Shown here: one piece after another, positions 28,605 to 64,000 of the stretch
Layout of the letters: every line of letters begins with the position of its first letter
Numbering within the stretch: the stretch's first letter is position 1
DNA from: Citreicella sp. C3M06
GTDB taxonomy: Bacteria > Pseudomonadota > Alphaproteobacteria > Rhodobacterales > Rhodobacteraceae
Assembly: GCF_018860705.1 (NCBI RefSeq)
Contig: NZ_JAHKQA010000002.1
Span: 62,001 to 126,000, forward strand
Reading direction: 5' to 3'
Length of the DNA stretch: 64,000 nucleotides
Notes under the pieces: generated by a model
What the model was told of the DNA's origin: nothing
Seen by the model: the letters and a program-made list of their open reading frames with translations, nothing else
The model's database searches: none
Made by a program: the position numbers and the translations under genes

Positions 28605-28617
28605 AAGGCCCGAAAAG

Positions 28618-30848: not shown

Positions 30849-30850
30849 GC

Positions 30851-31687: not shown

Positions 31688-31699
31688 CGATTATTTCCG

Positions 31700-32029: not shown

Positions 32030-32056
32030 CCGGGTGGGAAGGCCACTCCCACCCGG
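32030..32056 (-). terminator. Hairpin downstream of creatininase-family operon
   Basis: Perfect 10-bp stem CCGGGTGGGA / TCCCACCCGG with a 7-base loop, 28 bases beyond the stop of the last gene of the reverse operon. No T-run. Confidence 0.5.
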
Positions 32057-32084
32057 GTGGATCATATCGAATGACGGGCGGTGT

Positions 32085-32921: not shown

Positions 32922-32942
32922 GCCCCCGACGCGCTGGTTTGC

Positions 32943-35671: not shown

Positions 35672-35684
35672 GGGGAGTCTCCTG

Positions 35685-44800: not shown

Positions 44801-45157
44801 CCGAACGCCAAAGGTCTTTCTGCCGATACGATCACGCGGCTGAAATCCGACTGAGGGACCACTTGCGAGGCTGGCAGAAACGTGACCTTCGCGCTTGTTC
44901 TGTATCTGGGCTGACGGGGGCAGCCTCAATCCACGCATATCCAAGGACAAACAATGTGTTCTGGTGAACACTGAGGCTGGGGGCTACAGTCGCAAGAAGC
45001 GGCTGTCTCTGGTCGGCGGCCTCCGTGAAAGTACCCAGAGAGGCTATTGGATCTCAAGCGGCGCGGCCTGACGCAAGATCCCAATCTGGGCGCAGACGAT
45101 GGGGGCTATGGGTGTCTGAATGGCCCTGCGAGAGATCTTTGCCAGAACCAGCCGTGC
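44801..45157. other. Unassigned stretch before M24 gene
   Basis: About 350 bases between the IS110 remnant and the end of the M24 hydrolase gene. Short frames only; no recognised motif. Probably decayed insertion-sequence DNA. Confidence 0.35.
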
Positions 45158-46333
45158 TCAGTATTGGTAGGGCGAGCGCGTCAGGAGTTCGTTGCCGTCT
45201 CGACCGATGATGAGGATATCCTCGACGAACGCCGAGCCTGTTTCATCATCTGCAAGAAAGGCCTCCACCCCGAACACCATGCTCTCGCGCACCACATCCT
45301 CGGGTTCGGACATCACAGTGGAGATCCGCGGTTGCTCGAATGACAGACCGATGCCGTGACCGTAAAAGGGGAAATTCTTCATGAGGGTGCTTTCACTGCC
45401 GCCGAAGGCCTGCGTGAGGCGATCCCCTTCGGCCGCGACATCGAGCAGGCGCACGCCCGGACGCATCATTGCTGACAGCCGCTGCACGATATCGGCCGTG
45501 GCCTCGATCAGTCGGCGCTGCCGGGGGCTCGGTTTTCCAAAGACCGAGGTTCGCCCGGGATCGAGGTAGTAGCCTTGCTGAAAGGCCGCATGCACCGTCC
45601 CCCGGACCAGATCGCCGGGGGCGGGCGCATCATCGGCCGACCCGGTCAGGGGGAAGCGATAATCGGCATCGATCGTATCGCCGTGGTTGGTTCCGATCGC
45701 CTGAATCCTGCCGCCGCGGGCGACCACCACACGCGCCGCATCGCCCGCAGCCTCGCGTTCGAGTTTTCCCATCGTGAGACCCTGCATCAGCACGTCGGTC
45801 GCCTCGGTCGCAGCCACGCCCGCGATACGATAAACGTCAAGCTCGCGCGGGCTCTTGATCGCGCGGACCCGGCGTATGAGGTCATCCGCATCGACCCACT
45901 CGATATCGGGCGTGGCATCCCGAAGCTGGCGCCAGTACGTCACCGGCATGAACCACGCACCGCAAAAGGCCACCCGGCCGGTGATGCCGCGTTCTTTGAG
46001 ACGGCGCGCAATCGACAGGAAGGGATGGTTGTCGCAATAGACATCCGCGACACTGATCAGGTCGCGGCGCGGCTCGGGTTCATCGATATGAAGCTCTGGC
46101 TCGTGGCCCTTCTGCAGGATGATGCCCGAAAACGAACGCGCCGACCAGATACGCGAGTCCATACCGCCGCTGACCGAATAGTGGTTGCTCAGATAAAGCA
46201 CATCGCCGCAGTTGTCGGTGGTGCCGCCGCCGCGGCTCACGACGACAGCGGCCTCGAAATTATCTTCGGCCATGACCTGCTGCACACGGGCCCAGCGGGC
46301 TTGGTATTCTTCGATCGGAAAGTGACGCAGCAT
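45158..46333 (-). CDS. M24 (pita-bread fold) hydrolase, creatinase/prolidase-like, incomplete metal set
   Basis: This 391-residue protein has a creatinase N-terminal domain (to about residue 165) and a pita-bread C-terminal domain. Of the five metal ligands of prolidases, the second Asp (YYLDPGRTS, Asp258), His (YGHGIGL, His326) and both Glu (FGVEAFL, Glu357; FVEDILI, Glu371) are present, but the first Asp aligns with Thr246. It may therefore be metal-free like creatinase, or bind a single metal. It is the last gene of the polar amino acid ABC operon, so it probably hydrolyses the imported compound or a derivative. Starts at ATG. Confidence 0.82.
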   Translation of the reverse strand: MLRHFPIEEYQARWARVQQVMAEDNFEAAVVVSRGGGTTDNCGDVLYLSNHYSVSGGMDSRIWSARSFSGIILQKGHEPELHIDEPEPRRDLISVADVYCDNHPFLSIARRLKERGITGRVAFCGAWFMPVTYWRQLRDATPDIEWVDADDLIRRVRAIKSPRELDVYRIAGVAATEATDVLMQGLTMGKLEREAAGDAARVVVARGGRIQAIGTNHGDTIDADYRFPLTGSADDAPAPGDLVRGTVHAAFQQGYYLDPGRTSVFGKPSPRQRRLIEATADIVQRLSAMMRPGVRLLDVAAEGDRLTQAFGGSESTLMKNFPFYGHGIGLSFEQPRISTVMSEPEDVVRESMVFGVEAFLADDETGSAFVEDILIIGRDGNELLTRSPYQY

Positions 46334-46375
46334 TCGAAACAGCTTTCAGGGGTTGCGGGCGACACGCCCCGAAAC

Positions 46376-46397
46376 GAGGCCGCCGCGAAGCGGCCTC
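46376..46397 (-). terminator. Attenuator-like hairpin between binding protein and M24 gene
   Basis: Perfect 8-bp stem GAGGCCGC / GCGGCCTC with loop CGCGAA, between the binding-protein stop and the M24 start. No T-run. It probably protects the binding-protein mRNA or lowers M24 expression. Confidence 0.45.
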
Positions 46398-46416
46398 GCA
46401 GATCGGGACGCAAGGA

Positions 46417-47223
46417 TCAGTTGGTGGCGAAAATGGTCCGGATCGGCTCTGCGGGGGTCGGATCGAAGCCGATCAGATCGCTGGTCAGCTCGGCATAGGT
46501 GCCGTCCGCGACCATGTCGGCAAGGGCCGCATTCACCGCCCGGGCGAGGTTGGGCTTGCCCATCTTGATGGCAAATCCCTTCTGGATCGAGGACACCGGC
46601 TCTTCGAGAAGTTGCAGGGGCAGGCTGGATTTCTCGATCGCATAGGCGGCTGCGACCGCATCGGTGATGATGGCATCGACCTGACCGTTCGCGAGATCCT
46701 GCATGGCATCGGATTCCGCCTTGTAGGATTTCACCTCCGCTCCCAGCTCTTCGGCAATCGTGGTCCAGTTGGATGCAACGAGGCCACCAACGGTTCGGCC
46801 CTTCACATCTGCGGGCTGCGTGATATCGCTCCCGGTCTGCACGACGACCCGGCCACCGGACTCGAGCCAGCCATCCGAGAACAGCACCTTCTTCTGGCGC
46901 TCTTCGGTGATGTCCATCGCGACCGAGACGATATCGTACTGATCGGCCTCAAGACCGATCAGCACGGATTCCCACTTCACCAGCACGGGTTCGTAGTCCA
47001 GCCCGAGGCGATTGGCGATCTCACGCATGACGCGGATCTCGAGACCGTCCAGCGCGCCATCCGGTGCGCGCATCGAGAACGGAGGATAGGTGCCCTCGGT
47101 CGCAGCAGAGAGCACGCCCGGCTCCAGCAACTCCAGCTCTTGCGCGTCCTGCGCCTTGAGCTCAGCCGCCAGCGGCAGCAGCAGTGCGGTCGCAATTGCC
47201 GCAATCTTGATCTTGAAGGTCAT
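46417..47223 (-). CDS. Polar amino acid-type ABC transporter substrate-binding protein
   Basis: This 268-residue periplasmic protein has a signal peptide (about residues 1-25, ending LKAQD) and the type II amino-acid-binding fold: GVLSAATEGTYPPFSM, GLEIRVMREIANRLGL and the hinge segment DVKGRTVGGLVASNW. The ATG at 47223 gives a proper signal; the longer frame does not. It serves the permease at 47316 and the ATPase at 47972. Confidence 0.9.
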   Translation of the reverse strand: MTFKIKIAAIATALLLPLAAELKAQDAQELELLEPGVLSAATEGTYPPFSMRAPDGALDGLEIRVMREIANRLGLDYEPVLVKWESVLIGLEADQYDIVSVAMDITEERQKKVLFSDGWLESGGRVVVQTGSDITQPADVKGRTVGGLVASNWTTIAEELGAEVKSYKAESDAMQDLANGQVDAIITDAVAAAYAIEKSSLPLQLLEEPVSSIQKGFAIKMGKPNLARAVNAALADMVADGTYAELTSDLIGFDPTPAEPIRTIFATN

Positions 47224-47315
47224 TGGGGGAACTCCCTGTCTGGTTTTTTCTGTTTGGCCCGGTTTTCCGGTGTTGTTGGAGCGCGGCGCACAAGCTGGCG
47301 CGCCCATTCGGCAGA

Positions 47316-47972
47316 TCAGTACAATCGAGCAAAGCGGCGCTCGAAAAAGGCCGCCAACTGCGTCAACAGGGTGGTGAGCGCCAGATATATGAGCGCAACC
47401 GCGATGTAGAAATCGAAGGGGCGGAACGTGGCCGAAATCAGCGTCTGGGCGTAGAGCGTCAGTTCCACAACCGTGATCGTGGACAGCAGCGAGGTGTTCT
47501 TGAGCGTGGAAAGCGCCTCATTCGTCACCGCCGGCAGGATGATCCGCACAACTTGCGGCAGGATGATCGTGCGCATGGTTTCGGCGCGACTGAACCCCAG
47601 CGCCAATGAGGATTCGGTCTGGCCCTTGGGGATCGCCTGCAAGCCGGATCGCACGATTTCAGCCACATAGGCGCCCGAGTTGATGCCCAGTGCCAGCACG
47701 CCAGCCATATAGGGCGACATTCGGACCCCGAGCTGCGGCATTCCGAAATAGACGATGAAGATCTGGATCAGCGCGGGCGTGCCCCGGATGAACCATATGT
47801 AAAAGGCGGCAGCCCCCCTCACCGAGGTGAGATCGGACCGTTGCCCGAGCGCCGCCGCCAGACCAAAGACCCAGCTCAGCACGATCGTCAGCACGGTCAG
47901 CCAGAGCACCGTCCAGGCGGCTGTCAGGAAACCGGGACCGTAGACAGAGATGTCGTTTGCAAGCGCCTGCAT
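47316..47972 (-). CDS. Polar amino acid-type ABC transporter permease
   Basis: This 218-residue permease of the His/Glu/Gln/Arg/opine type has four to five membrane segments and an EAA-type loop ESSLALGFSRAETMRTIILPQ. Only one permease gene is present, so a homodimer is expected. It overlaps the ATPase stop by three bases. Confidence 0.9.
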   Translation of the reverse strand: MQALANDISVYGPGFLTAAWTVLWLTVLTIVLSWVFGLAAALGQRSDLTSVRGAAAFYIWFIRGTPALIQIFIVYFGMPQLGVRMSPYMAGVLALGINSGAYVAEIVRSGLQAIPKGQTESSLALGFSRAETMRTIILPQVVRIILPAVTNEALSTLKNTSLLSTITVVELTLYAQTLISATFRPFDFYIAVALIYLALTTLLTQLAAFFERRFARLY

Positions 47973-48781
47973 CAGACCAGCCCTCCGGCTTTCGCCTGAC
48001 TAAGATCGTCATGGAGGATCGAGTGCAGGAACTGACGCAGACGCGGGCTCTGTGGATCGCGCAGCATCTTGCCGGGAGGCCCCTGCTCGCCGATGACGCC
48101 GTCCTCGAAAAACAGCACGCGCGAAGACACATCGCGGGCGAAAGACATCTCATGTGTCACCAGCAGCATGGTCATGCCGTCTGCGGCAAGCGACGCCATC
48201 AGCATCAGGACTTCGTGGACAAGCTCGGGATCGAGCGCCGAAGTCACTTCGTCGAAAAGCATCAAGCGCGGGGTCATGGCGAGGGCGCGAGCAATGGCGA
48301 CGCGCTGCTGCTGCCCGCCTGAAAGGCGCTGCGGTGAGGTGTGGCGCTTATCGTAAAGCCCGATCCTATCGAGCAGCCCCTCGGCCATTTCCGTCGCCTC
48401 CGCCCGGGATTTTCCGAGGATTCGCACCGGGGCGTGGGTGACATTCTCGAGCACGGTCTTGTGCGGCCAGAGGTTGTAGCTCTGAAAGACCATCCCGATC
48501 CGGGACCGCAGCGCCTGAAGGTCGCGCTCCGAGGGGTGCTGACCGCTGGTGCTGTCGAAGTCGAAGGTCTTGTCATCGAACGCCATCGTCCCGCTGTCTG
48601 CCGGTTCGATGGCGTTGATCGTCCGAAGGAAGGTGCTCTTGCCGGACCCGCTGGCACCGATAATCGACACCACCTCTCCTGCGGCCACATCGAGGTCGAT
48701 GCCTTTCAGCACCTCGAGCTTTCCGAAGCTTTTGCGAATGTCGCGCAGCTTGAGAAGTGACCCTCCAAGGTCCGTCGTCAT
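47972..48781 (-). CDS. Polar amino acid-type ABC transporter ATP-binding protein
   Basis: This 269-residue ATPase has Walker A IGASGSGKST, the N-terminal HisP/GlnQ-like KSFGKLEVLKGIDLDV, signature LSGGQQQRV and Walker B LMLFDEVTSALDPE. It is the first gene of the operon ATPase-permease-binding protein-M24. The ATG at 48781 is preferred over a 20-codon extension. A TGGTATACTGAA box lies 75 bases upstream. Confidence 0.9.
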   Translation of the reverse strand: MTTDLGGSLLKLRDIRKSFGKLEVLKGIDLDVAAGEVVSIIGASGSGKSTFLRTINAIEPADSGTMAFDDKTFDFDSTSGQHPSERDLQALRSRIGMVFQSYNLWPHKTVLENVTHAPVRILGKSRAEATEMAEGLLDRIGLYDKRHTSPQRLSGGQQQRVAIARALAMTPRLMLFDEVTSALDPELVHEVLMLMASLAADGMTMLLVTHEMSFARDVSSRVLFFEDGVIGEQGPPGKMLRDPQSPRLRQFLHSILHDDLSQAKAGGLV

Positions 48782-48855
48782 GGCTTTATCCTGTTTCGGC
48801 GGCCCGGCCTCATCGCTGAGGCGTGAGTCGATCTTCCGCAATTTGGTAATTCCGC

Positions 48856-48867
48856 TGGTATACTGAA
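48856..48867 (+). promoter_or_regulatory. TGGTATACTGAA box 1
   Basis: Exact TGGTATACTGAA with GTATAC palindromic core, 75 bases upstream of the ABC ATPase start. Three more exact copies occur at 49112, 50084 and 59982 (reverse). Confidence 0.7.
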
Positions 48868-49111
48868 AATCTAAGCCTGAAACTCGAAACTTGCTTTTGG
48901 CGACAATGCCCTCCGCCGGCGGATTAGAATTTGCGCATTATGCGTTCGTATTGAGCATATTAGCGACGCTTCGCAGTAGCGTTCCGCCTAGCCTGTGCAG
49001 CTGTGCCATCATTGCGGCACCAGAGCGTGAGCGTGCCGACGCCATTCAAACGCCCCTTCAATGCGACAGTCAGCAAGATCTGCCGGCATTTGCTCGTGCA
49101 GGGCGTGCAAT

Positions 49112-49123
49112 TGGTATACTGAA
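49112..49123 (+). promoter_or_regulatory. TGGTATACTGAA box 2
   Basis: Exact TGGTATACTGAA, 37 bases upstream of the FCD-GntR start at 49161; the position fits autoregulation. Confidence 0.7.
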
Positions 49124-49160
49124 TACTCTCAAGACCACGTTGAAGAGGCGGATCGCCACG

Positions 49161-49856
49161 ATGCATACAGGATCATTCAGGCCAAGGCTGATGGACCCCG
49201 GCAAAGGCCAAAGCCACGCCGCGACGAACCGCACGCTTGCTCATGACGCGCACCGGAAAATCATGGCGATGATCCTCGACGGCAGGCTGCAGCCGGGCGA
49301 TCTCTTGCAACCGGCGATGCTTGGCGAGGCACTGTCGATGTCGCTGACGCCCATCCGCGAAGCGATCCGTCAGGTTCAGGCAGACGGGCTTGCCGAGATC
49401 CATGGCCGTTTCATGCGGGTGCGGCGCCTGTCCGAAGCGGAAGTGGTGGAAATCTTCTTCATCCGCCTGTCGCTCGAGCCGTATTTTGCCGCCAACGCGC
49501 GTGTTCCGGACAAGGCGCTTGACGCTATGGAGGCCCGAATCATGGCGCTTATGCGGCAAGGGCCGTCGAACGAGAGCGATGCTCGGGCCGTTGACGCTGA
49601 TTTCCACCAGATGATCGCGCTATCCCATGGCAACCAGCCGGCGGCGCAGGTCGTCGCAAAGCTGCACCGGCGGACCGCCATCTTCGACCATACGCAAGTG
49701 CCCGCGCGATTCCTGACAGGCTGCGCCGAGCATCTCGACCTGATTGACGCTCTGCGCGAGCGCGATGCACAGCGTGTAGAGCACGCGATGATCCATCACC
49801 TCGAAGGCGCGCGCGATGCCATCCTGCGCAGGTTGCGCCGCAGCCACGCCCCCTAG
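49161..49856 (+). CDS. GntR family regulator, FCD type
   Basis: This 231-residue protein has a GntR winged helix (residues 25-85; MSLTPIREAIRQVQADGLAEI) and an all-helical FCD ligand domain with metal-binding-type residues (DFHQMIA, EHLDLIDAL, HHLEGARDAI). It is closely similar to the regulator at 57471-58136, sharing GRFMRVRR, EIFF-R--LEP and IFDH--VP-RF--GC-EHL. The start ATG has AGGCGG upstream. It lies between the ABC and TRAP operons, each preceded by the same box. Confidence 0.9.
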   Translation: MHTGSFRPRLMDPGKGQSHAATNRTLAHDAHRKIMAMILDGRLQPGDLLQPAMLGEALSMSLTPIREAIRQVQADGLAEIHGRFMRVRRLSEAEVVEIFFIRLSLEPYFAANARVPDKALDAMEARIMALMRQGPSNESDARAVDADFHQMIALSHGNQPAAQVVAKLHRRTAIFDHTQVPARFLTGCAEHLDLIDALRERDAQRVEHAMIHHLEGARDAILRRLRRSHAP

Positions 49857-50149
49857 GCAGCCCAACGCCGTTTGGGTGAGCGCCGCCGCAAAGAGCCCGG
49901 ACTGCCGCGCAGACCGGACGGGCGCGATTCCATGTCCGGACTCCTCCCGCCGGGTCGCTGGCGCTGAAGACGTCCCAAACTTGCTCAATTTTCACACACG
50001 GCCCTCGAAATATCATCCAATTAACAGGCATTTACTGCCTGGCCACGGGTTCTTGCCCCAGGCCTATTTTCATGGGATACAGGTGGTATACTGAAATCAC
50101 ATGGATCGCTGCGCGCGATCTTTTTGATAACGCCAACAGGGGTCGACAC
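49857..50149. promoter_or_regulatory. TRAP operon promoter region with box 3 (50084-50095)
   Basis: This 293-base intergenic region contains TGGTATACTGAA at 50084-50095, 55 bases before the DctP start. The flanks also match the pxp operon site: GGATACA, one variable base, then the box preceded by G and followed by A, found here and in reverse complement at 59980-60003. No gene seen. Confidence 0.65.
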
Positions 50150-51133
50150 ATGAAATACGGAATAGGAATGGGCATTGCCACGCTGGGCGTCGCTCTTGGC
50201 TCGGCGGTTGCGGCGCAGACAAGCTGGGACATGTCGGTGGTCTGGCCGGAGGGCAACTTCCACACCAAGAACGCCATGACCTTCGCCGAGCAGGTCGCCG
50301 AGGCCACCGATGGCGAGGTGCAGATCACCGTGCATTCGGGCGGCGCGCTTGGCATCAAGGGCCCCGAAGGCATGGCCGCCGTGCGCGACGGGCTGGTGCC
50401 GATCGCCGACATCCTGATGAGCCAGCAGGTCGGCGAAAACCCGGCGCTGGGGGTCGAGACCCTGCCCTATCTCGCCCCGACGCTTCCCGACCTCGCGCTG
50501 CTGCACAAGTTCTACCGCCCGATGATCGAAGACATCGCCGAGGAGATGAACCAGAAGCTGCTCTACATGACGCCCTGGCCCGGACAGGCAGTCTATTCCC
50601 CGAACAAGATCGAAACGCTCGCCGATCTCGAGGGGCTGACCATCCGCGTCGTCGACGCCAATGGCGACAGCTTCTTCAACGCGATCGGCGCCGCGCCGCT
50701 GCAAATGCCGTGGGGCGAGGTCGTTCCGTCGCTGGCCGCTGGCACCATCAAGGGCGTCACCACGTCTTCGTCATCGGGCGTCGATGGCGCGTTCTGGGAG
50801 TTCATGGACAACATGAGCACCTTCAACTGGCAGGCCTCGTCGAACATCGTCACCGTCAATCTCGACGCATGGAACGCCCTTGATGCCGAAGACCAGAACG
50901 CCATCGAGGCGGTCGCCGACGCGCTTGAAGGCGATTTCTGGCTCAACTCCGCGATGGAAGACGCCAGCAAGATCGCGACGCTGGAAGAGAACGGCATGAC
51001 CGTCTCGGCGCCGTCGGCAGAGCTGAAGGCCGATCTCATCGATGCCGCGCGCCCGCTGTGGGATGCCTTCAAGGAGCGCGTGCCCGAGGTCGCCCCGGTG
51101 ATCGACAACTACCTCTCCGTGCGCGGAGAGTGA
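50150..51133 (+). CDS. dctP: TRAP transporter solute-binding protein (DctP family)
   Basis: This 327-residue protein has a signal peptide (residues 1-23, ending AVAAQ) and a DctP fold (MSVVWPEGNFHTKNAMTFAEQ; LEGLTIRVVDANGDSFFNAI; the PLQMPWGEVVPSLAAGTIKG selector region). It binds a small anionic or zwitterionic ligand. It is the first gene of a TRAP operon controlled by box 3; by context its ligand may be the cyclic amide or lactam processed by the neighbouring genes. The ATG at 50150 is chosen because the upstream codons read through the operator. Confidence 0.92.
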   Translation: MKYGIGMGIATLGVALGSAVAAQTSWDMSVVWPEGNFHTKNAMTFAEQVAEATDGEVQITVHSGGALGIKGPEGMAAVRDGLVPIADILMSQQVGENPALGVETLPYLAPTLPDLALLHKFYRPMIEDIAEEMNQKLLYMTPWPGQAVYSPNKIETLADLEGLTIRVVDANGDSFFNAIGAAPLQMPWGEVVPSLAAGTIKGVTTSSSSGVDGAFWEFMDNMSTFNWQASSNIVTVNLDAWNALDAEDQNAIEAVADALEGDFWLNSAMEDASKIATLEENGMTVSAPSAELKADLIDAARPLWDAFKERVPEVAPVIDNYLSVRGE

Positions 51134-51142
51134 TCTGCCGGA

Positions 51143-51167
51143 CCGGGCCTCTGCGACAGGGGCCCGG
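51143..51167 (+). terminator. Attenuator-like hairpin between dctP and dctQ
   Basis: CCGGGCC / GGCCCGG 7-bp stem with an 11-base loop, ten bases after the dctP stop. It could favour binding-protein expression over the permeases. Confidence 0.45.
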
Positions 51168-51201
51168 CCCTTCATTTACAACCCGTTGGAAGGTAGCAAG
51201 G

Positions 51202-51771
51202 ATGGTGTCAGCCATGGACCACAGCCCGGACCCGAGCCCCGCGCCAATGCCCTCGCGGCGGTTTGGCGCGATCATCGCCCCGATCGATGCCGTGACGCGG
51301 GCGGGCAGCCTGATCGCCGGGCTTGCCCTGCTGGCGATCCTTGGGATGATCACCGCCGAGATCGTCTCGCGCAACTTGTTCGGACGCTCGCTGCCGTTCT
51401 CATGGGACTATTCCGCCTATGCCATGGGCACCGCCTTCATGATGGGGGCCGCGGATGCGCTACGCCGGGGCGCGCATGTGCGCGTCACCGCGGTGCTGGA
51501 AGCGGTGCCGCATCGGCTGTCGCGGGTGATCGAATTCGGCGCCTGCCTCGCCGGGCTGGCCGCCTGCGCCGCCTTGGCATGGGCCTTGAGCGAAATGGCC
51601 TTGCTGTCGCTTCAGCGCGGCTCGACCTCTGCCACCGTGATGCGCACGCCGCTGGTCTGGCCGCAGAGCCTTGTCGCGCTTGGTGCCATCATCCTGACGC
51701 TGCAATGCGCGGCGCAACTGCTGCGGCTGAGCCGCGGCGAACGCCTCGCCGAAGGCGCCGCGATCGAATGA
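51202..51771 (+). CDS. dctQ: TRAP transporter small permease (DctQ family)
   Basis: This 189-residue protein has about 30 Pro-rich cytoplasmic residues followed by four membrane segments, including the family SLPFSWDYSAYAMGTAFMMGAADALRRGAHVRV region split over about residues 64-96. It partners DctM at 51884. The start is ATG with GGAAGG upstream. It is separated from dctM by 112 bases holding an 18-base tandem repeat, which is unusual for TRAP operons. Confidence 0.9.
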   Translation: MVSAMDHSPDPSPAPMPSRRFGAIIAPIDAVTRAGSLIAGLALLAILGMITAEIVSRNLFGRSLPFSWDYSAYAMGTAFMMGAADALRRGAHVRVTAVLEAVPHRLSRVIEFGACLAGLAACAALAWALSEMALLSLQRGSTSATVMRTPLVWPQSLVALGAIILTLQCAAQLLRLSRGERLAEGAAIE

Positions 51772-51782
51772 GCCGCGCCACT

Positions 51783-51863
51783 GCCTGCAAGACGCCCCCC
51801 GCCCGCAAGACGCCCCCCGCCTGCATAACGCCCTCTGCCTGCATAACGCCCCCCGCCCCCAAG
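51783..51863 (+). repeat. 18-base tandem repeat between dctQ and dctM
   Basis: Four full units, GCCTGCAAGACGCCCCCC and variants, at 51783, 51801, 51819 and 51837, followed by a half unit. Differences are limited to a few positions (C/T in base 4, AAG/ATA, terminal CCC/TCT). It starts 11 bases after the dctQ stop and ends 20 bases before dctM. Confidence 0.85.
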
Positions 51864-51883
51864 ATTTCCCGAAAGGCGCCGCG

Positions 51884-53182: not shown

Positions 53183-53221
53183 GGCGTGACGCCGCCCTAC
53201 ACGAACGCCTTCGGGCGTGAT

Positions 53222-53251
53222 AAAGCCCCCGGCGCTCTCGCCGGGGGCTTT
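53222..53251. terminator. Strong intrinsic terminator between convergent operons
   Basis: Perfect 13-bp stem AAAGCCCCCGGCG / CGCCGGGGGCTTT with a 4-base loop, followed by TGCTGTTTTC. Because the stem begins with AAA and ends with TTT, it can work in both directions, ending the TRAP operon and the reverse pxp operon. Confidence 0.85.
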
Positions 53252-53420
53252 GCTGTTTTCCGGGGGTCGAAAAGAACATCCCTCGCGGCTTGTCCTCGAA
53301 GCGGATCACCGGCGGGATGTCAAAGGCGATGCCTTTTCCTCAAGCCCCGTCGCAGCGTCGCAGCACCCTGCGATCGCCGAGCTCGCCGCTGCGACTTTAT
53401 GGTGCGTTGCCGGGTGAAGC

Positions 53421-54599: not shown

Positions 54600-54605
54600 G
54601 GGGCC

Positions 54606-56515: not shown

Positions 56516-57474
56516 GCGCGGGCCTCCGTCGCCTGTTCGGGACCGACCGGGGTCAGGACGGTCTCGGGCACGCCGCCGGTCAGCGCGGTGATGACATGGC
56601 CCGCCGCGCCAAGGGCGACCCGGCGCAGGGCCTCTTCGGTGGTGCCGCCAAGGTGCGGCGTGAAGATCACGTTGGAGAACGCCGCCAGCGGACCGGTGCC
56701 CGCCCCATGGCTGTAGACGTCAAGCGCCGCGCCGCCACATTGGCCACTGGCCAGCGCCGCAGCAAGCGCGGCCTCGTCCACCAGCTCGGCGCGCGCCACG
56801 TTGACCAGCTGCGCGCCGGGCTTCATCGCATCGAAGCGCGCGGCGTTGAACATGTGATGGGTTTCGGGGCGCAGCGGCGTGTGCAGCGTCACGAGGTCGA
56901 CCTGCGCCAGCCCGTCCTCGAGCCTGTCGACGCGGGCGAAGCTGCTGACGTTTCGCGCGCGCGGCGAATGCACCAGAACCTTCATGCCGAAGGCGGCGGC
57001 GGCCATCTGCCCGAAGCGGCTGCCGATGCTGCCCCAGCCGACGACCAGCGCGGTCTTGCCCGAGAGTTCGCGGAAGCGCGCCGACTCGCGAAAGCCCGGC
57101 GTCCCGGCACGTTCCGAGCGATCGGCAGCGTTCACCCCGCGTGCCAGCGCCAGCGCAAGGCCAAGCGTCAGCTCGGCCACCGATTGCGCGTTGGCGCCGG
57201 GGGTGTTGGCAACCATCACGCCGCGTTCGATCGCGGCGTCCTTGTCGACGGCATTGTGCCCGGTGCCATGCACCACCACGGCGCGCAACCGGTCGGCCGC
57301 TTCGAAGGCCGCGCGCGGGAATCCGGCATCGCGGGTGATCGCGGCATCGCAGCCCTGCACCGAGCGGGCGATGCTGGCGGCATCGGTGCCACTGCAGGGA
57401 ACCGGCTCGATGCCATGGCTGCGCAGGAGGGCGAGCCCGGCGTCATGCACGGGCTGAACGATGAGGCATTTCAT
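56512..57474 (-). CDS. D-isomer 2-hydroxyacid dehydrogenase family protein
   Basis: This 320-residue NAD-dependent dehydrogenase has the Rossmann motif GWGSIG (146-151), catalytic Arg in VNVARAEL (Arg228) and catalytic His in PHLGGTT (His274). The usual catalytic Glu after the LDV motif is missing: residues 251-258 read LDVYSHGA where DVFxxEP is typical. Activity may be altered. It would interconvert a 2-hydroxyacid and a 2-oxoacid, the latter being a natural product of the nearby aminotransferases. Confidence 0.86.
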   Translation of the reverse strand: MKCLIVQPVHDAGLALLRSHGIEPVPCSGTDAASIARSVQGCDAAITRDAGFPRAAFEAADRLRAVVVHGTGHNAVDKDAAIERGVMVANTPGANAQSVAELTLGLALALARGVNAADRSERAGTPGFRESARFRELSGKTALVVGWGSIGSRFGQMAAAAFGMKVLVHSPRARNVSSFARVDRLEDGLAQVDLVTLHTPLRPETHHMFNAARFDAMKPGAQLVNVARAELVDEAALAAALASGQCGGAALDVYSHGAGTGPLAAFSNVIFTPHLGGTTEEALRRVALGAAGHVITALTGGVPETVLTPVGPEQATEARA

Positions 57475-58136
57475 GTCCGGAGGGCCTTTTCAGTGGGGGC
57501 GGGCAGCACCTTGTCAAGATGCGCAAAGATGGCGTCGCGGGCGTGGTCGAGATGCGCGCCCATCAGCGCGGCGGCCTCGTCGCGCTGGCCCGAACGCAGT
57601 GCCGAAAGCAGGGCGAGGTGCTCCTCGCAGCCACGGGCAAAACGCTCGGGCACGACGCGGTGATCGAAGATGCAGGTGCGCATGTGCAGGTCCTGAATGA
57701 CCTTGGCGGCGGCGGCATTGCCGGCGGCCACCGCGATCGCCATGTGAAAGCTCTGGTCGACATGCCATTGCAGGTCGTCCTCATGCGGGCCCTTTTGCAT
57801 CAGCGCCCGCACCTCGGCTTCAAGCGTATCGATCTGCTGCGATGTCAGCCGCCCGGTGGCCGCGCGCACCGCATCTGGTTCAAGGGTGCGGCGCAGGAAG
57901 AAGATCTCATCGATTTCCTCTGGATTGATCCGCCGCACCCGCATGAAACGGCCCGCCTGCTCGGCCAGCCCCTCGCTGCGGATCCGGGCGATGGCCTCGC
58001 GCACGGGGGTGCGGGACATATCGAGATCGGCACAAAGCCGGGTTTCCTGCAGCGTATCGCCGGGCTTCAACGCGCCTTCGAGAATACGCTTGATCAGCTC
58101 GCGATACGCGGTCGCCGCAAGGGTCTTGCCGCTCAT
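57471..58136 (-). CDS. GntR family regulator, FCD type, paralogue of 49161 gene
   Basis: This 221-residue protein has a GntR winged helix (MSRTPVREAIARIRSEGLAEQ, about 37-57, with GRFMRVRR right after) and an FCD domain with the same distinctive stretches as the 49161-49856 regulator. The pair likely recognise the same or similar operators, and both genes sit in units preceded by TGGTATACTGAA. It overlaps both neighbours by four bases. Confidence 0.9.
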   Translation of the reverse strand: MSGKTLAATAYRELIKRILEGALKPGDTLQETRLCADLDMSRTPVREAIARIRSEGLAEQAGRFMRVRRINPEEIDEIFFLRRTLEPDAVRAATGRLTSQQIDTLEAEVRALMQKGPHEDDLQWHVDQSFHMAIAVAAGNAAAAKVIQDLHMRTCIFDHRVVPERFARGCEEHLALLSALRSGQRDEAAALMGAHLDHARDAIFAHLDKVLPAPTEKALRT

Positions 58137-59197
58137 TGCGCCATATCCTTTGAAGGTTCCAGATCGCGGCCCATCACCGCCTCGGGCTCGACGATACTGC
58201 CTGCCAGATTGCACGACAGCAAAAACCCCGAGCTGAGCGTCATCCCCGTGGCGGGAACCAGCGATGCCAGAACCTCGCGCAGCCGTGCCCGTTCGGCAAG
58301 CAGGATATCCTCGGCCTCATCGCGGCTCACCACTTCGAATCGCAGGTCGGCCCCGGTCGGCAGCTGCGCGAGACGCGGCAGATCGGCCGTGGTCACCGTG
58401 GCGATCTTGGGATAGCCGCCGGTGGTCTGCGCGTCGGCCATCAGCACCATCGGCTGGCCCGAGGCGGGCACCTGAATGGCCCCCGACACGATGCCATCCG
58501 AGACAATGTCATGGCCGCGCATGGCGGGCAGGCTCGGGCCGTCCAGCACCATGGCCATGCGGTCACGCTGAGCCGAGATGCGAAAGCGGGCAGTTTCGAG
58601 CTGCGCGAGAACTTTGGCCGAGAAGTAATCGTCCTGCGGGCCAAGCACGACGCGGATCGCACGCTCGGGGGCGTTCGGGCCGGGGCGGCTCGCCGGGTCG
58701 CGCGGACGCAGGCAGGGGGCAGTTTCGTCCGCGTCGCCAAGCGGCAGTTGGTCAGCGGCCCGCAGCGCGCGGCCCTCGAGCCCGCCGAGCGCAAAGCGCA
58801 GATGCGTGGCGCGGGCCCCCAGCACTTCGGGCACGGCGATGCCGCCAGAAACCGCGATGTAGCCCCATGTCGCGCCCTTGAGCGCGCCGATTTTCACCAC
58901 CTCGCCCGCCTCGACCGCATGGCTCTGGCCTGCGGACAGCAAGCGCTCGCCGATGCGGATATCACAGTCGCCGCCCGTCACCGCGAGGCGCAGCGCGCGG
59001 CCCGCCCGGAAGCTGCCGCCGATGGCGGTGAATTCCAGCGCCGCAGCAGACAGGGGATTGCCGCAAAGCGCGTTGGCAAGGTCCATCGCCGGGCGGTCCA
59101 TCGCCCCGGCAGCAGGCACGCCAAAGCGCTTGCGCCCGTGGCGACCGTGGTCCTGCACCGAGAGCATCGGGCCGGCACTGAGAATTTCCAGACTCAT
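58133..59197 (-). CDS. pxpC: 5-oxoprolinase subunit C-like (biotin-dependent carboxyltransferase family)
   Basis: This 354-residue protein of the KipA/PxpC family has the N-terminal SVQDHGRHGRKRFGVP and GAMDRPAMDLAN motifs, and GGYPKIATV late in the protein. With PxpA and PxpB it forms an ATP-dependent 5-oxoprolinase that opens the lactam of pyroglutamate. It overlaps pxpB by four bases. In this cluster the substrate might be 5-oxoproline or a related ring. Confidence 0.92.
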   Translation of the reverse strand: MSLEILSAGPMLSVQDHGRHGRKRFGVPAAGAMDRPAMDLANALCGNPLSAAALEFTAIGGSFRAGRALRLAVTGGDCDIRIGERLLSAGQSHAVEAGEVVKIGALKGATWGYIAVSGGIAVPEVLGARATHLRFALGGLEGRALRAADQLPLGDADETAPCLRPRDPASRPGPNAPERAIRVVLGPQDDYFSAKVLAQLETARFRISAQRDRMAMVLDGPSLPAMRGHDIVSDGIVSGAIQVPASGQPMVLMADAQTTGGYPKIATVTTADLPRLAQLPTGADLRFEVVSRDEAEDILLAERARLREVLASLVPATGMTLSSGFLLSCNLAGSIVEPEAVMGRDLEPSKDMAQ

Positions 59198-59952
59198 GGC
59201 GCGGCCTCCGGCATTGGCATGCTCTCGCCCGACGCGATCGCGGCCGCGATCTCGGCGCCTTCGGCGGCACTCACAGGCACAAAGTTCAGCCGATCCCCCG
59301 CGGCAAACAGAAAGGGCTCGGCGCGGGCGGGATCAAAGGCCCGCCACGGCGTCCACCCGACAAAGCGCCAGCCCGAAGGGCCGGTCACCGAGTTGATACT
59401 ACCCTGCTGGCCGCCGATGCCGACGGCCCCCGCCGGGATCGACTGGCGCGGCTTGGGCAGGCGCGGCGTGTGCAGCGCCTTGGGCAGCCCTCCAAGATAG
59501 GCGAAGCCCGGCGCGAAGCCGATCATGTAGACCCGGAACTCTGCGGCGCTGTGTATCTGTATAAGCTCATTCGGCGTGAGCTGCTTTTCGCGGGCGAGAT
59601 CTTCGAGATCAAGCCCGACCTCGCCGCCATAGACCACCGGCACGCGCCAGTGGCGGGCCGACCCTGCGCTTACCTTTAGCTGCGCGATACGCTCCGCCAG
59701 CGCCGCTTCCAGCGCCGCTCCACGCAGCAGCGCCGGATCATAGCTCACCAGCAGCGAGCGGTATGTCGGCACACATTCCAGCACGCCCTGAATTGGGAAA
59801 TCAGACAGGCTTTCGGCAAGCGCGATGACCCGGCGATTCACGTCCGCGTCGATGACATCCCCGAATTGCACCGCCAGCGCGCAATCGCCAACGCTCAGGA
59901 AAGCCGGGACGATTTCGGGCCCGCCGAGGCCGTGCTGCGCGCGCTTGCTCAT
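59194..59952 (-). CDS. pxpB: 5-oxoprolinase subunit B-like
   Basis: This 252-residue KipI/PxpB-family protein has SVGDCALAVQFGD near residue 20, PTYRSLLVSYDP, and the family motif GFAPGFAYLGGLP followed by IPAGAVGIGGQQ. It is the first gene of the seven-gene reverse operon. Its promoter carries a reverse TGGTATACTGAA box at 59982-59993, about 30 bases upstream of the ATG. Confidence 0.93.
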   Translation of the reverse strand: MSKRAQHGLGGPEIVPAFLSVGDCALAVQFGDVIDADVNRRVIALAESLSDFPIQGVLECVPTYRSLLVSYDPALLRGAALEAALAERIAQLKVSAGSARHWRVPVVYGGEVGLDLEDLAREKQLTPNELIQIHSAAEFRVYMIGFAPGFAYLGGLPKALHTPRLPKPRQSIPAGAVGIGGQQGSINSVTGPSGWRFVGWTPWRAFDPARAEPFLFAAGDRLNFVPVSAAEGAEIAAAIASGESMPMPEAAP

Positions 59953-60091
59953 TGAAAAACCTGTTCTGCCTTGCTTGCCTTTTCAGTATACCACTTGTAT
60001 CCGTAGTGCAATCGGGCAAACGACCACCCCGACCCGGCGGCTCTGACACGCCGCACGACAAGACCCACGAACACACCCCGGGAGGAAGCGA
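59953..60091. promoter_or_regulatory. Divergent pxpB / pxpA promoter with box 4 (59982-59993)
   Basis: TTCAGTATACCA at 59982-59993 is the exact reverse complement of TGGTATACTGAA. The sequence beyond it (CTTGTATCC) matches the TRAP site flank. It lies 30 bases from pxpB and about 100 bases from pxpA, so it can control both directions. Confidence 0.7.
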
Positions 60092-60871
60092 ATGACGGTC
60101 ACCTTGGACCTCAACTGCGACATGGGCGAGAGCTTTGGCGCCTATTCCATCGGCGACGACGCCAAGATGCTCGAAACGGTGACAACCGCGAATGTCGCCT
60201 GCGGCTTTCACGCCGGGGATCCGGTGGTCATGCGCCGCACCATCCAGCTTGCAAAGGCGGCGGGCGTGGCGGTTGGTGCGCATCCCTCGTTCATGGATCT
60301 TTACGGCTTTGGCCGGCGGCGAATCTCGGGCGAGCGGCCCGAGGATCTCGAGGCGCAGCTGATCTACCAGATCGCCGCGATGCAGGGCATGGCCGCAGCC
60401 GAAGGCCATGCGATGACCCATGTGAAGACCCATGGCGCGCTTGGCAACATGGCCGCGACCGATCCGGAACTGGCCGCCATCTGCGCGCGCGCCGTCGCCG
60501 CGGTGGACCGCTCGCTGGTCTATGTCTCGCTGCCCTATTCGGAAACCTACACGGCCGCCGAAAAGGCCGGGCTCCGTGTCGCCTGCGAGATCTACGCCGA
60601 CCGCAGCTACACCGATACCGGTGAGCTGACCCCGCGCAGCCAGCCCGGCGCGGTGATCCATGACATCGCGCAAAGCACCGAGCAGGTGCTCGAGATGGTG
60701 CTGAACAAGCGCATCCCCACCACCGGCGGCAAGCGCCTGCCGGTCGAACCAGCGACCCTGTGCATTCACGGAGACACCGACGGCGCGCCGCAGATCGCCG
60801 CCGCGCTGCGCAAGTCGCTGGAAGAAAACGGCGTCACCATCGCCCCCTTTGCCGCCCCCGGAAGAGCCTGA
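60092..60871 (+). CDS. pxpA: 5-oxoprolinase subunit A (LamB/YcsF family)
   Basis: This 259-residue protein has the family signature LNCDMGESFGAY at residue 6, NVACGFHAGDP, GAHPSFMDLYGFGRR and HVKTHGALGN. PxpA works with PxpBC to hydrolyse 5-oxoproline to glutamate with ATP. Unusually, pxpA is divergent from pxpBC, sharing a promoter. RBS GGGAGGAAG. It is followed three bases later by an aminotransferase. Confidence 0.94.
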   Translation: MTVTLDLNCDMGESFGAYSIGDDAKMLETVTTANVACGFHAGDPVVMRRTIQLAKAAGVAVGAHPSFMDLYGFGRRRISGERPEDLEAQLIYQIAAMQGMAAAEGHAMTHVKTHGALGNMAATDPELAAICARAVAAVDRSLVYVSLPYSETYTAAEKAGLRVACEIYADRSYTDTGELTPRSQPGAVIHDIAQSTEQVLEMVLNKRIPTTGGKRLPVEPATLCIHGDTDGAPQIAAALRKSLEENGVTIAPFAAPGRA

Positions 60872-60874
60872 CCC

Positions 60875-61741
60875 ATGTCCAGAATTGTCTACCTGAATGG
60901 CCAGTGGCTGCCCGAAGACGAGGCCAAGGTGTCGATCTTCGACCGCGCCTTTCTTATGGGCGATGCCATTTACGAGGTCACCTGCGTGCTCGACGGCGCG
61001 CTGCTCGACTACGCGGGCCACGCCGCGCGCCTGCGCCGCTCGGCGGCCGAGCTTGGCCTTGTGCTGCCGCTTGACGATGACGCCCTGCTGGCGGCGCATC
61101 ACGAGATCGTCGCCCGCAACGACCTGCAAAGCGGCATGATCTACCTGCAGCTCAGCCGGGGTGTCGCCGAGCGCGACTTTGCCTTCCCGCCCGAGGGCAC
61201 CGAGCCGACGCTGGTGATGTTCACCCAGGCCAAGGACGTGCTGGTCAACCGCGCCGCCGAGACCGGCATTTCCGTCGCCCTGCTGCCCGATCTGCGCTGG
61301 GGCCGCCGCGACATCAAGACGGTGCAACTGCTCTACCCGTCGATGGCGAAGATGGAGGCCAAGGCGCGCGGCGCCGATGATGCATGGCTCGTCGAGGACG
61401 GCTTCGTCACCGAGGCCAGCGCCGCCACCGCGCATATCGTCACAGCAGAGGGCAAGCTCGTCACCCGCGCGCTGTCGCATGCGCTGCTGCCCGGCGTGAC
61501 CCGCGCCGCGATCCTCGCCCTTGCCGCCCGGCACGGCGTGGAGATCGAGGAACGCGCCTTCACCCCCGACGAGGCGCGCAAGGCCCGCGAAGCCTTTATC
61601 ACTTCGGCGACCAATTTCGTGGTTCCGGTGGTGCGCATCGACGGCGAGGTGATTGGAGACGGCGCCCCCGGCGCGTTGACCCGCGAGCTGCGCGCGCAAT
61701 ATATCGCCTCCCGCCGCGCCACCGCGCTCGCCCCCGCCTGA
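60875..61741 (+). CDS. Class IV aminotransferase, D-amino acid transaminase-like
   Basis: This 288-residue fold-type IV PLP enzyme has the N-terminal VYLNGQWLPEDEAKVSIFDRAF, the PLP lysine in RRDIKTVQLL (Lys148) and the Glu of VTEASAAT. The DIK context and length resemble D-amino acid aminotransferase more than branched-chain or aminodeoxychorismate-lyase members. It would convert an amino acid released upstream to a 2-oxoacid, perhaps the D-isomer. Three bases downstream of pxpA. Confidence 0.88.
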   Translation: MSRIVYLNGQWLPEDEAKVSIFDRAFLMGDAIYEVTCVLDGALLDYAGHAARLRRSAAELGLVLPLDDDALLAAHHEIVARNDLQSGMIYLQLSRGVAERDFAFPPEGTEPTLVMFTQAKDVLVNRAAETGISVALLPDLRWGRRDIKTVQLLYPSMAKMEAKARGADDAWLVEDGFVTEASAATAHIVTAEGKLVTRALSHALLPGVTRAAILALAARHGVEIEERAFTPDEARKAREAFITSATNFVVPVVRIDGEVIGDGAPGALTRELRAQYIASRRATALAPA

Positions 61742-61819
61742 TCTCCCGTTCAGCCCCTGCCGCAGCGATGGCCGGGGCTGTTTGCAACGGCCCGACACGG
61801 CCAATCCAGGACTTTTCCC

Positions 61820-63034
61820 ATGAGCCAGTACCTTGCCAGCCGCATGGCGGCCGTGCGCCCCTCTCCGACCATCGAGCTTGCGCTGAAGCTGCAGCAGATG
61901 AAGGCCGAGGGCCATGACATCATCAGCCTCGGACAGGGCGAACTCGACTTCGCCACGCCCGAGCATATCTGCGACGCTGGCATCGCCGCGATCCGTGGCG
62001 GCCAGACCAAGTATACCGCCAGTTCGGGCACCCCGGAGCTGAAGGCCGCGATTGCCGCCAAGTTCCAGCGCGACAACGGTCTGACCTTCACGCCCGCGCA
62101 GATCATCGCTGGCAACGGCGCCAAGCAGCTGGTGTTCAACGCGCTGATGGCGACGCTGGACGCGGGCGACGAGGTGATCATCCCCGCGCCCTACTGGGTC
62201 AGCTACCCAGACATGGTCAGCCTCGCCGGGGGCACGCCGGTGATCGCGCCCTGCACTGCCGCGCATGGCTGGAAGCTTACCCCCGAAACGCTGGCCGCCG
62301 CGCTGAGCCCAAAGACCAAATGGGTGCTGCTGAACTCGCCGAACAATCCCACCGGCGCGCTCTATTCCGAGGCCGACATCGCCGCTCTCTGCGAGGTTCT
62401 GGCCGATCACCACACGCTGATCATGGCCGATGACATCTACGAACTGGTGGTGCACAAGGGCAGCTTTGCCACGCCCGCCAAGGTCGCGCCGGCGCTGGCC
62501 GATCGCATCCTGACGGTGAACGGCGTCTCTAAGGGCTACGCGATGACCGGTTGGCGCCTCGGCTATGCCGCCGGGCCGGACTGGCTGGTCCGGGCGATGG
62601 ACATTCTGCAATCGCAGAGCACCTCGAACCCTTCTGCGATCTCGCAGGCGGCCACCGTCGCCGCGCTGAGCGCCCCCGCAGATTTCCTGCCCGAGCGCAA
62701 CGCCCGGCTGAAAGCGCGCCGCGACAGGGTGATGGCCGCCATCGACAAGATGCCCGGCATCTCCTGTGCAACCCCGCCCGCCAGCTTCTATGTCTTCCCC
62801 GATTGCTCCGGCCTGTTCGGGGCGCGCACCCCCGAGGGCAAGGTGATCGAATCCGACATGGACGTGGCCGATTTCCTGCTGACCGCGGGCCGCATCGGCG
62901 TGGTGCCCGGCTCGGCCTTCGGCACGCCGGGCTACCTGCGCATGGCCTATGCGCTCGATGACGCGCGCCTTGACGAGGCGATGGCGCGCGCCATCGCGGC
63001 GCTTGAGACCGTTCAGATGCCCATCGCGGCCTGA
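61820..63034 (+). CDS. Class I aminotransferase (aspartate aminotransferase-like)
   Basis: This 404-residue fold-type I PLP enzyme has SLGQGELDFATP near residue 37, NSPNNPTGALYS (172-183), and the PLP lysine in VNGVSKGYAMTGWRLGY (Lys238), with a C-terminal Arg region (GYLRMAYA). It resembles the subgroup Ib aspartate/prephenate aminotransferases. It probably supplies or removes the amino group between the pathway and glutamate or aspartate. Follows the class IV enzyme after 78 bases. Confidence 0.92.
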   Translation: MSQYLASRMAAVRPSPTIELALKLQQMKAEGHDIISLGQGELDFATPEHICDAGIAAIRGGQTKYTASSGTPELKAAIAAKFQRDNGLTFTPAQIIAGNGAKQLVFNALMATLDAGDEVIIPAPYWVSYPDMVSLAGGTPVIAPCTAAHGWKLTPETLAAALSPKTKWVLLNSPNNPTGALYSEADIAALCEVLADHHTLIMADDIYELVVHKGSFATPAKVAPALADRILTVNGVSKGYAMTGWRLGYAAGPDWLVRAMDILQSQSTSNPSAISQAATVAALSAPADFLPERNARLKARRDRVMAAIDKMPGISCATPPASFYVFPDCSGLFGARTPEGKVIESDMDVADFLLTAGRIGVVPGSAFGTPGYLRMAYALDDARLDEAMARAIAALETVQMPIAA

Positions 63035-63106
63035 CGCCGCCCGATACCGATTCCGGCCGCGCAGGACGCACGGCCGGCTGCCCATTTTGCACCGAGGTTC
63101 CCCGCA

Positions 63107-64000
63107 ATGCCCCTTCTCACTTCGCATGCCCGCGGCGTCTACGTGATCGCCGTCACCCCCTTCACCGAGACCGGCGAGATCGACTGGAACAGCCTCGACC
63201 GGGTGGTGGATTTCTACTTCGACAAGGGCGCCGACGGCCTCACCATCCTTGGCATGATGGGCGAGGCGCCCAAGCTGACGCAGGCCGAAAGCCGCGCCAT
63301 TGCCGAGCGCGTCATCAAGCGCGCCGAGGGCAAGCCCGTGGTGGTCGGCGTCTCGGCCCCCGGTCTTGCCGCCATCGGCGAGCTGGGCAAGGCGGTGATG
63401 GACATGGGCGCCGCTGGCTGCATGGTCACCACCCCCGGCAGCCTGAAGACCGACCCGCAGATCCACGGCTACTTTGGTCAGGTCGCCCGCACGCTTGGGG
63501 AGGGCGTGCCGATCGTGCTGCAGGATTTCCCGCTGGCGACCGGCGTGCATATCTCCGACGACGTGCTGGGCCGGATCATCGACGACGTGCCGCAGGTGGT
63601 CATGCTCAAGCACGAGGACTGGCCGGGCCTCGCCAAGATCACCAGATTGCGCAAGGCCGAGGCCGAAGGGCGCCGCCGCATCTCGATCCTTTGCGGCAAT
63701 GGCGGAGTTTTCCTGCCCGAAGAGATGGCCCGTGGCGCCGATGGCGCAATGACCGGTTTCGGCTACCCGGAGATGCTGGCAGATGTTGTGCGCCACGCCG
63801 CTGTCGGTGATATGGACAGGGCGCAGGATCTGTTCGATGCCTATCTGCCGCTGGTACGCTACGAACAGCAGCCGGGCGCCGGACTGGCGGTGCGCAAATA
63901 TGTGCTTGCCAAGCGCGGTGCCATCGGATCTGCCGCGCTGCGCGCCCCGGGTGCTGGACTGGCGCCCGAGGCCATCGCCGAGGTCGAGCAACTGCTCGCC
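63107..64000 (+). CDS. Dihydrodipicolinate synthase (DapA) family protein, 3' end beyond window
   Basis: The 298 visible codons cover almost all of a DapA-type TIM barrel: VIAVTPFTETGEIDW, GMMGEAPKLTQAE (equivalent to GTTGE) and the Schiff-base lysine in VVMLKHEDW (Lys168). The catalytic Tyr of DapA (in LYNVPGRTG) is replaced: this stretch reads VLQDFPLATG. It is therefore likely a lyase, aldolase or deaminase acting on a 2-oxoacid rather than true DapA. The ATG at 63107 follows GAGG. No stop is reached at base 64000. Confidence 0.88.
   Translation, partial: MPLLTSHARGVYVIAVTPFTETGEIDWNSLDRVVDFYFDKGADGLTILGMMGEAPKLTQAESRAIAERVIKRAEGKPVVVGVSAPGLAAIGELGKAVMDMGAAGCMVTTPGSLKTDPQIHGYFGQVARTLGEGVPIVLQDFPLATGVHISDDVLGRIIDDVPQVVMLKHEDWPGLAKITRLRKAEAEGRRRISILCGNGGVFLPEEMARGADGAMTGFGYPEMLADVVRHAAVGDMDRAQDLFDAYLPLVRYEQQPGAGLAVRKYVLAKRGAIGSAALRAPGAGLAPEAIAEVEQLLA

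Follow-up and report, generated by a model that had tools for sequence, protein, structure and literature searches.

Ectoine clusters of the EutD/DoeA–EutE type combine a ring-opening, metal-poor M24 hydrolase with an N-deacylase, an aminotransferase, import by a tripartite ATP-independent periplasmic (TRAP) or ATP-binding cassette (ABC) transporter and control by a GntR-superfamily regulator. Growth of Corynebacterium glutamicum on 5-oxoproline requires pxpTABC, which unites PxpABC with a dedicated importer and a GntR-type regulator and includes no M24, M20, aminotransferase or dehydrogenase gene (PMC13274462). Bordetella has two TRAP-type pyroglutamate receptors, DctP6 and DctP7, which the same report places near a eukaryotic-type oxoprolinase gene (PMC13274462). 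Here we analyse a cluster of some 20 genes that resembles all of these, at positions 45158–64000 of a 64,000-base window of Citreicella sp. C3M06 (bases 62001–126000 of contig C60, which has 140,697 bases, in a 5.0-Mb genome of 106 contigs). An original prediction, made from the sequence, had taken it for a candidate undescribed catabolic island. The cluster is probably one catabolic system under common control, acting on a carboxylated cyclic amide with a five-membered, pyroglutamate-like ring that would be neither ectoine nor simply L-5-oxoproline.

Set beside the ectoine clusters, this one has an M20 amidase in place of EutE and, in addition, PxpABC, a hydroxyacid dehydrogenase and a class IV transaminase; set beside pxpTABC, it imports by TRAP or ABC transporter, and its PxpABC has a paralogue, a second PxpBCA, elsewhere in the genome. 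Its likeness to ectoine catabolism, ring opening plus deacylation, would be one of function and not of membership. NCBIfam (19 cluster proteins scanned) and Pfam place every family named in the original prediction where it had been put. Six genes make up the core: M24-B, a metal-poor, ectoine-hydrolase-like hydrolase (53421–54599, minus strand); an M20 hydantoinase/carbamoylase-family amidase (55238–56515, minus); a D-2-hydroxyacid dehydrogenase-family gene (HADH; 56512–57474, minus); PxpC (58133–59197, minus); PxpB (59194–59952, minus); and PxpA (60092–60871, plus). A class IV aminotransferase of the D-amino-acid transaminase subfamily (60875–61741, plus) is a frequent partner.

We scanned a collection of species genomes once with an alignment of seven M24-B proteins and found 84 relatives, of which the best 80 loci were kept with up to 10 kb of flank on each side; a gene was counted as present if a tblastn match reached at least 35% identity and at least 50% coverage. 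At least five of the six core genes, counting M24-B, the query, occur in 71 of the 80 loci, all six in 55, and PxpA, PxpB and PxpC together in 65. Taken singly, the partners are PxpC (73), HADH (72), PxpB (71), M20 (70) and PxpA (69), followed by the class IV transaminase (51), a VOC-family gene (44), the ABC substrate-binding protein SBP3 (41), the second hydrolase M24-A (35), the TRAP proteins DctM (32) and DctP (31) and a DUF1989 protein (31). Tallies for GntR regulators and the ABC ATPase contain cross-matches between paralogues, and neighbour lists drawn from mechanical open reading frames show lower presence than tblastn. As a control, 15 proteins flanking the cluster were included in the same run: 12 match no locus and one matches a single locus (13 of 15 at 0–1), and the remaining two, read as ABC ATPases, match 53 and 4 of the 80 by way of paralogues. 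Outside this control, the genome's other PxpA and PxpC match 69 and 67 loci by cross-match to the cluster copies. Co-occurrence in other genomes, the check that the original prediction had proposed, came out in its favour, and its view that more than plain PxpABC is involved is likewise supported.

The cluster extends across Rhodobacterales, Hyphomicrobiales including Methylobacterium, and members of Rhodospirillaceae/Azospirillaceae. In Methylobacterium, M24-B retains 66–70% identity, PxpA 50–52% and M20 45–47% in a different gene order, so that the link to M24-B has survived divergence of the partners; PxpA of the Rhizobium clusters is about 70% identical to that of the window. Distribution is patchy: an M24-B relative (E up to 1e-60) is found in 5 of 149 genomes of the same family, our own included, the other four being two at 74–75% identity with the cluster around M24-B and two at 50–53% that fall in a sister clade. 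A class-wide draw of 385 genomes gave six relatives at E up to 1e-100, namely our own genome and five at 49–54% identity. Mirror-tree correlations are positive and, having no control, are given no weight.

The cluster also shares an operator-like motif. Words around TTTCAGTATACCA lie far above shuffles both in the PxpA–PxpB/DctP regions (53, window included) and in the M24-A–DUF1989/ATPase regions (31), and a seed search in the relatives yielded 97 sites, which fall in 39 of 52 and 30 of 31 regions, respectively; shuffled regions had a mean of 1.0. From the relatives' sites, with the window left out, we built a weight matrix, which finds exactly four strong sites in the window and its right flank (78 kb): between the divergent PxpB and PxpA (34.6 bits; 59976–59997, plus), ahead of DctP (32.8 bits; 50080–50101, minus), ahead of GntR1 (31.6 bits; 49108–49129, minus) and ahead of the ABC/M24-A genes (27.9 bits; 48852–48873, minus). 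The next site scores 6.2 bits and the best of three shuffles 9.9. Within the 5-Mb genome the exact 13-mer has three copies, all in the cluster, and with up to one mismatch four of five matches are in the cluster. Of ten relatives' genomes, nine contain exact matches, 13 in all; 12 are inside the range of the fetched locus and the thirteenth is about 7 kb outside it on the same contig number (contig identity in these genomes was judged by coordinates only). In a survey of 86 loci, every one of the 155 sites scoring 15 bits or more lies next to a gene from one of the conserved neighbour families, and 70 of the 80 loci have such a site. Because the matrix was trained on many of these regions, the weight rests on cases outside the training set: the window, nine loci whose DctP promoter is not next to PxpA, and DapA in one further locus (L089).

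Because the motif core, TATACT, is like a −10 box, promoters may overlap the site. Ahead of the ABC genes it is oriented unlike a promoter serving them, and this speaks for an operator. Three GntR-family regulators lie in the cluster: GntR1 (49161–49856, plus, the start probably at 49161 as re-assigned from the sequence), GntR2 (54606–55241, minus) and GntR3 (57471–58214, minus), with 49% identity between GntR1 and GntR3. All three track the motif in relatives, and we infer that it is a GntR operator. Core co-occurrence and the shared motif uphold the prediction of a single catabolic island, and the view that the block would be one regulon for one family of substrates, not neighbouring leftovers, is well supported by these comparisons.

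By tblastn, DctP and DctM occur together in 31 of the 80 loci, SBP3 in 41, both in two and neither in nine, so TRAP and ABC are mostly alternative importers in relatives, which leaves room for two substrates or two uptake routes. The TRAP genes are inserted between PxpA and PxpB in many relatives; in the window, as in Agrobacterium AF1/95 and B6, the two modules are neighbours. The TRAP module consists of DctP (receptor; 50150–51133, plus, start probably at 50150), DctQ (small permease; 51058–51771, plus, start uncertain; matching an annotated Salipiger TRAP small permease and no NCBIfam model) and DctM (large permease; 51884–53182, plus). The ABC module comprises the amino-acid-type substrate-binding protein SBP3 (46417–47307, minus), a permease (47316–47972, minus) and an ATPase (47972–48841, minus). 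M24-A, a creatinase/prolidase-fold hydrolase (Pfam M24; 45158–46333, minus), accompanies SBP3 in 32 of its 35 loci and belongs with the ABC importer, usually together with a DUF1989 protein, and not with the core. In relatives the ABC module is accompanied by DUF1989 and agmatinase-like genes; no DUF1989 gene was found in the window, and the DUF1989 proteins elsewhere in the genome are only 29–32% identical to the cluster type. On the place of M24-A the original prediction, which had built the island around both M24 hydrolases, needs correction.

For the TRAP receptor DctP, the best three solved chains are 2PFZ, 6WGM and 2PFY (E 1e-35 to 8e-35), the next match being at E 1.8e-18, and 2PFZ and 2PFY rank first and third among 99 matched chains; the Bordetella pyroglutamate receptors are among its nearest solved relatives, and its own ligand is a prediction only. 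The 2PFZ and 2PFY crystal structures contain pyroglutamic acid (PMC3454389) and DctP7 has a pyroglutamate affinity of 0.3 µM (PMC11668362; PMC13274462). Because of this kinship of DctP and the presence of PxpABC, we assign the substrate, with moderate confidence, to the carboxylated cyclic amides near pyroglutamate.

The nearest solved chain to M24-B is the ectoine hydrolase DoeA (6TWK; E 1.8e-40), and here the prediction of a ring hydrolase of ectoine-hydrolase type was borne out. Glu255 of DoeA, which we take to be the covalent nucleophile, aligns with Glu245 of M24-B, a residue invariant in 28 of 28 alignment rows, as are the PH.TW, RYH and PDWGE motifs and Glu370. Mais et al. (2020) reportedly worked on EutD. 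At what we take to be the M24 metal-ligand positions, M24-B, as aligned with DoeA, lacks the usual ligands except the last Glu, whereas M24-A, read from the window and 12 of 36 relative rows, has lost only the first Asp (to Thr) and keeps four of five (Asp, His, Glu, Glu); the 'degraded metal sites' ascribed to both hydrolases are a matter of degree.

M24-B itself stays below both ectoine-hydrolase cut-offs, with 164 of 613 bits (TIGR02993) and 275 of 575 bits (NF038259). A true EutD (709 bits, cut-off 613) is encoded elsewhere in the genome, and M24-B is placed apart from it in a tree covering 25 of the 80 loci (L090 and L104 have no row), in which all 26 Pxp-linked rows group together with only 53/96 support. 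The sister clade of M24-B includes clusters with an enolase-superfamily protein and without PxpABC, from Agrobacterium fabrum C58, Pantoea and a further genome (G042). Elsewhere in the Citreicella genome, a EutD-like M24 protein (locus L123, 8019–16336) scores 432 bits, under the EutD cut-off of 613, and a few kilobases away are a DgcA-type N-acetyl-D-Glu racemase (496 bits, cut-off 400) and a class IV transaminase. We considered the racemase cluster of DgcA type, on contig C45, as a parallel and set it aside.

For the remaining enzymes, family models give assignments of differing strength. PxpA meets its NCBIfam subfamily cut-off (354 of 226 bits) and PxpB meets its own (197 of 146); PxpC falls short of the equivalog (229 of 500) and passes the domain model (263 of 230). 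The second PxpBCA elsewhere in the genome is 35–46% identical to that of the cluster, less than the PxpA of the Rhizobium clusters mentioned above, and its presence, with that of the true EutD, means that the cluster cannot be put down to either activity by itself. M20 passes the general hydantoinase/carbamoylase model and no equivalog cut-off in NCBIfam, reaching 260 bits on ErtE (N-carbamyl-L-glutamate amidohydrolase; cut-off 520); its nearest solved structure is the N-carbamoyl-L-amino-acid hydrolase 3N5F. The DapA-family enzyme (63107–64000, plus, continuing to 64033, 33 bases beyond the window) is optional, being found in 17 of the 80 loci, as is the class I aminotransferase (61820–63034, plus; 8 of 80), whose best NCBIfam match, PRK06107, is under its cut-off; both had been counted into the island and are indeed present, without being regular members of it in relatives. 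The nearest chain to the DapA-family protein, 3DZ1 (E 1.9e-99), is named only as dihydrodipicolinate synthase, and the next match is L-2-keto-3-deoxyarabonate dehydratase (E 2.5e-28). Its LKHE lysine, presumably the Schiff-base lysine, is kept, and QDFP (once QDYP) stands in all 11 relative rows (ten of the 80 loci and L017) as well as in the window; the Gln of this motif occupies what we take to be the position of the aldolase catalytic Tyr. With Gln-Asp at that place, the carbon–carbon cleavage that the original prediction had assigned to this enzyme is doubtful, and it may be a dehydratase rather than a lyase.

From these parts we propose the following order of reactions. A substituted or hydroxylated 5-oxoproline, or an equivalent hydantoin or cyclic amidine, would be taken up by the TRAP transporter, or by the ABC importer with M24-A as a possible entry hydrolase. 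M24-B would then open or trim the ring by metal-free chemistry, in which a covalent ester probably forms on Glu245, in parallel with the ester on Glu that we take ectoine hydrolase to form. M20 would remove an N-carbamoyl or N-acyl group, PxpABC would open the lactam at the expense of ATP, and the class IV (or class I) aminotransferase would take the amino group from the freed amino acid. The resulting 2-oxo acid would pass to the D-2-hydroxyacid dehydrogenase, and the DapA-family enzyme, where present, would carry out a dehydration. At least one of the GntR regulators would govern all promoters through the site around TTTCAGTATACCA.

Other explanations have to be weighed against this pyroglutamate-like cyclic amide system. 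In a hydantoin or ureide pathway, PxpABC or M24-B would open a hydantoin-type acid such as hydantoin-5-propionate or a dihydroorotate-like ureide, M20 would be an N-carbamoyl-amino-acid hydrolase and the aminotransferases would finish the job. The closeness of M20 to 3N5F, its partial score on ErtE, the DUF1989 and agmatinase-like genes that join the ABC module and the Asp/Glu racemase, dihydroorotase and second carbamoylase next to the Methylobacterium radiotolerans cluster all speak for it; we nonetheless consider it unlikely, because the NCBIfam scan of the window's cluster proteins turned up no hydantoinase of the cyclic amidohydrolase type, M20 meets no equivalog cut-off and the kin of the TRAP receptor bind pyroglutamate. 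Plain scavenging of L- or D-5-oxoproline, with M24-B, M20, the aminotransferase and the dehydrogenase as side branches for peptides or D-glutamate, would account for the one motif common to PxpABC and the pyroglutamate-type TRAP receptor and for the D-amino-acid-type transaminase. It is decidedly unlikely in view of the second PxpBCA in the genome and of M20, HADH and M24-B (the query) being shared as widely as PxpABC; for C. glutamicum, moreover, pxpTABC is reported to be what is needed for this purpose (PMC13274462).

The likeness of M24-B to DoeA/EutD is what suggests a variant ectoine or hydroxyectoine pathway, which we rejected as having next to no chance of being correct on the scores, separate clade, neighbourhood and separate true EutD: EutE, EutABC and EnuR have no NCBIfam match among the 19 cluster proteins and do not appear in the conserved-neighbour list. 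The absence of other ectoine genes noted in the original prediction accordingly holds for the cluster and not for the genome, with its EutD. That the block merely juxtaposes unrelated operons of an accessory replicon is very improbable. DnaA-like, ParA and ParB genes are near, on a plasmid-like contig where genes mix; synteny is nevertheless kept in several orders, the exact form of the motif is confined to the cluster within the genome, and the flank control, shared motif and core co-occurrence led us to reject chance neighbours.

Several observations weigh against a single cyclic amide system. Nine of the 80 loci have fewer than five core genes; four of these are cut by contig ends (L042, L092, L094 and L099), three are Methylobacterium loci without three core genes (L097, L098 and L105), and L101 and L104, with full flanks, are without five and four of the six. 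Only the 51 loci counted above have the class IV aminotransferase within reach, and the loci with neither importer within reach are likewise unfavourable, as is a mean pLDDT of 77.7 for the predicted DctP structure. The motif discriminates well only as an exact match: at up to two mismatches the genome has 26 matches against 15 for the reversed pattern, and the ten relatives' genomes have 27 against 18 when mismatches are admitted, with only 4 of 14 one-mismatch matches in cluster range and six of the ten genomes having such matches apparently off the cluster contig.

The gene set, its co-conservation, the shared motif and the largely alternative importers come directly from the computation. 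We regard it as an even call whether they belong to a ring-opening pathway that is both widespread and undescribed. In such a pathway a metal-free hydrolase with a Glu nucleophile, other than an ectoine hydrolase, would work with a carbamoylase-type M20 and an ATP-dependent oxoprolinase on a nitrogen heterocycle so far overlooked as a nutrient of bacteria, and the two importers would be interchangeable and subject to one GntR operator. The claim that the cluster is undescribed stands so far as open-licence papers go: among the matches listed, no description of this gene combination was recognised. Its presence in dozens of marine and plant-associated alphaproteobacteria, in many cases plasmid-borne, suggests that the compound is common in the environment, and the metal-free M24 chemistry of ectoine hydrolase may represent a wider catalytic type. 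With its receptors, enzymes and candidate operator defined, the cluster lends itself to direct identification of the substrate, through ligand screens of both binding proteins and growth assays on deletion mutants.

The block's nearest relatives are in Alloyangia, Salipiger, Pseudooceanicola and other Rhodobacterales. DnaA-like, ParA and ParB genes lie about 10–15 kb past the right end of the window (L009, 12716–16283), which makes contig C60 plasmid-like, with a DnaA-like replication module; a relative of M24-B (E up to 1e-40) is encoded in 50 of 72,556 plasmid records. A second cluster type with a sister-type M24 is found on pAt of A. fabrum C58 (L018) and on a Pantoea dispersa plasmid (L019). 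Both share with our cluster an M24 relative (51–52% identity) and an ABC importer, C58 also a VOC protein, a D-amino-acid transaminase and a hydroxyacid reductase, and Pantoea a class I aminotransferase and a DapA-family protein. They differ in having an enolase-superfamily, racemase-like protein, another M20 type and a glutamine-amidotransferase-like protein, with no PxpABC in the fetched stretch and no operator site of at least 15 bits. On the Methylobacterium radiotolerans plasmid (L016, 18493–21804), an Asp/Glu racemase, a dihydroorotase and a second carbamoylase are annotated just outside the cluster, which suggests hydantoin/ureide chemistry nearby.

An Rfam search of window positions 44000–64000 gave no riboswitch or other match at gathering scores. 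Between DctM and M24-B lies a 27-codon remnant of a VOC-family gene (53262–53333, minus; 63% identity). The intact gene sits at this place in relatives (Salipiger, Agrobacterium), and an intact copy, 82% identical to the Agrobacterium protein, is on another contig of the same genome. Downstream of the DapA-family gene, outside the window, is a short-chain dehydrogenase/reductase (SDR) gene (64033–64782), present in 10 of the 80 loci. The remnant and the SDR gene, like the shared motif and the pyroglutamate kinship of the TRAP receptor, go beyond the original prediction. Further along the right flank, an ADP-ribosylglycohydrolase-family gene stands beside a LacI-type regulator (L009, 3184–5708) in an apparently unrelated neighbouring cluster. 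On the same plasmid-like contig, positions 28588–36713 of the window encode a creatininase-family protein, together with what we take, from our own reading without a family search, to be HutU, HutD and an ABC importer.

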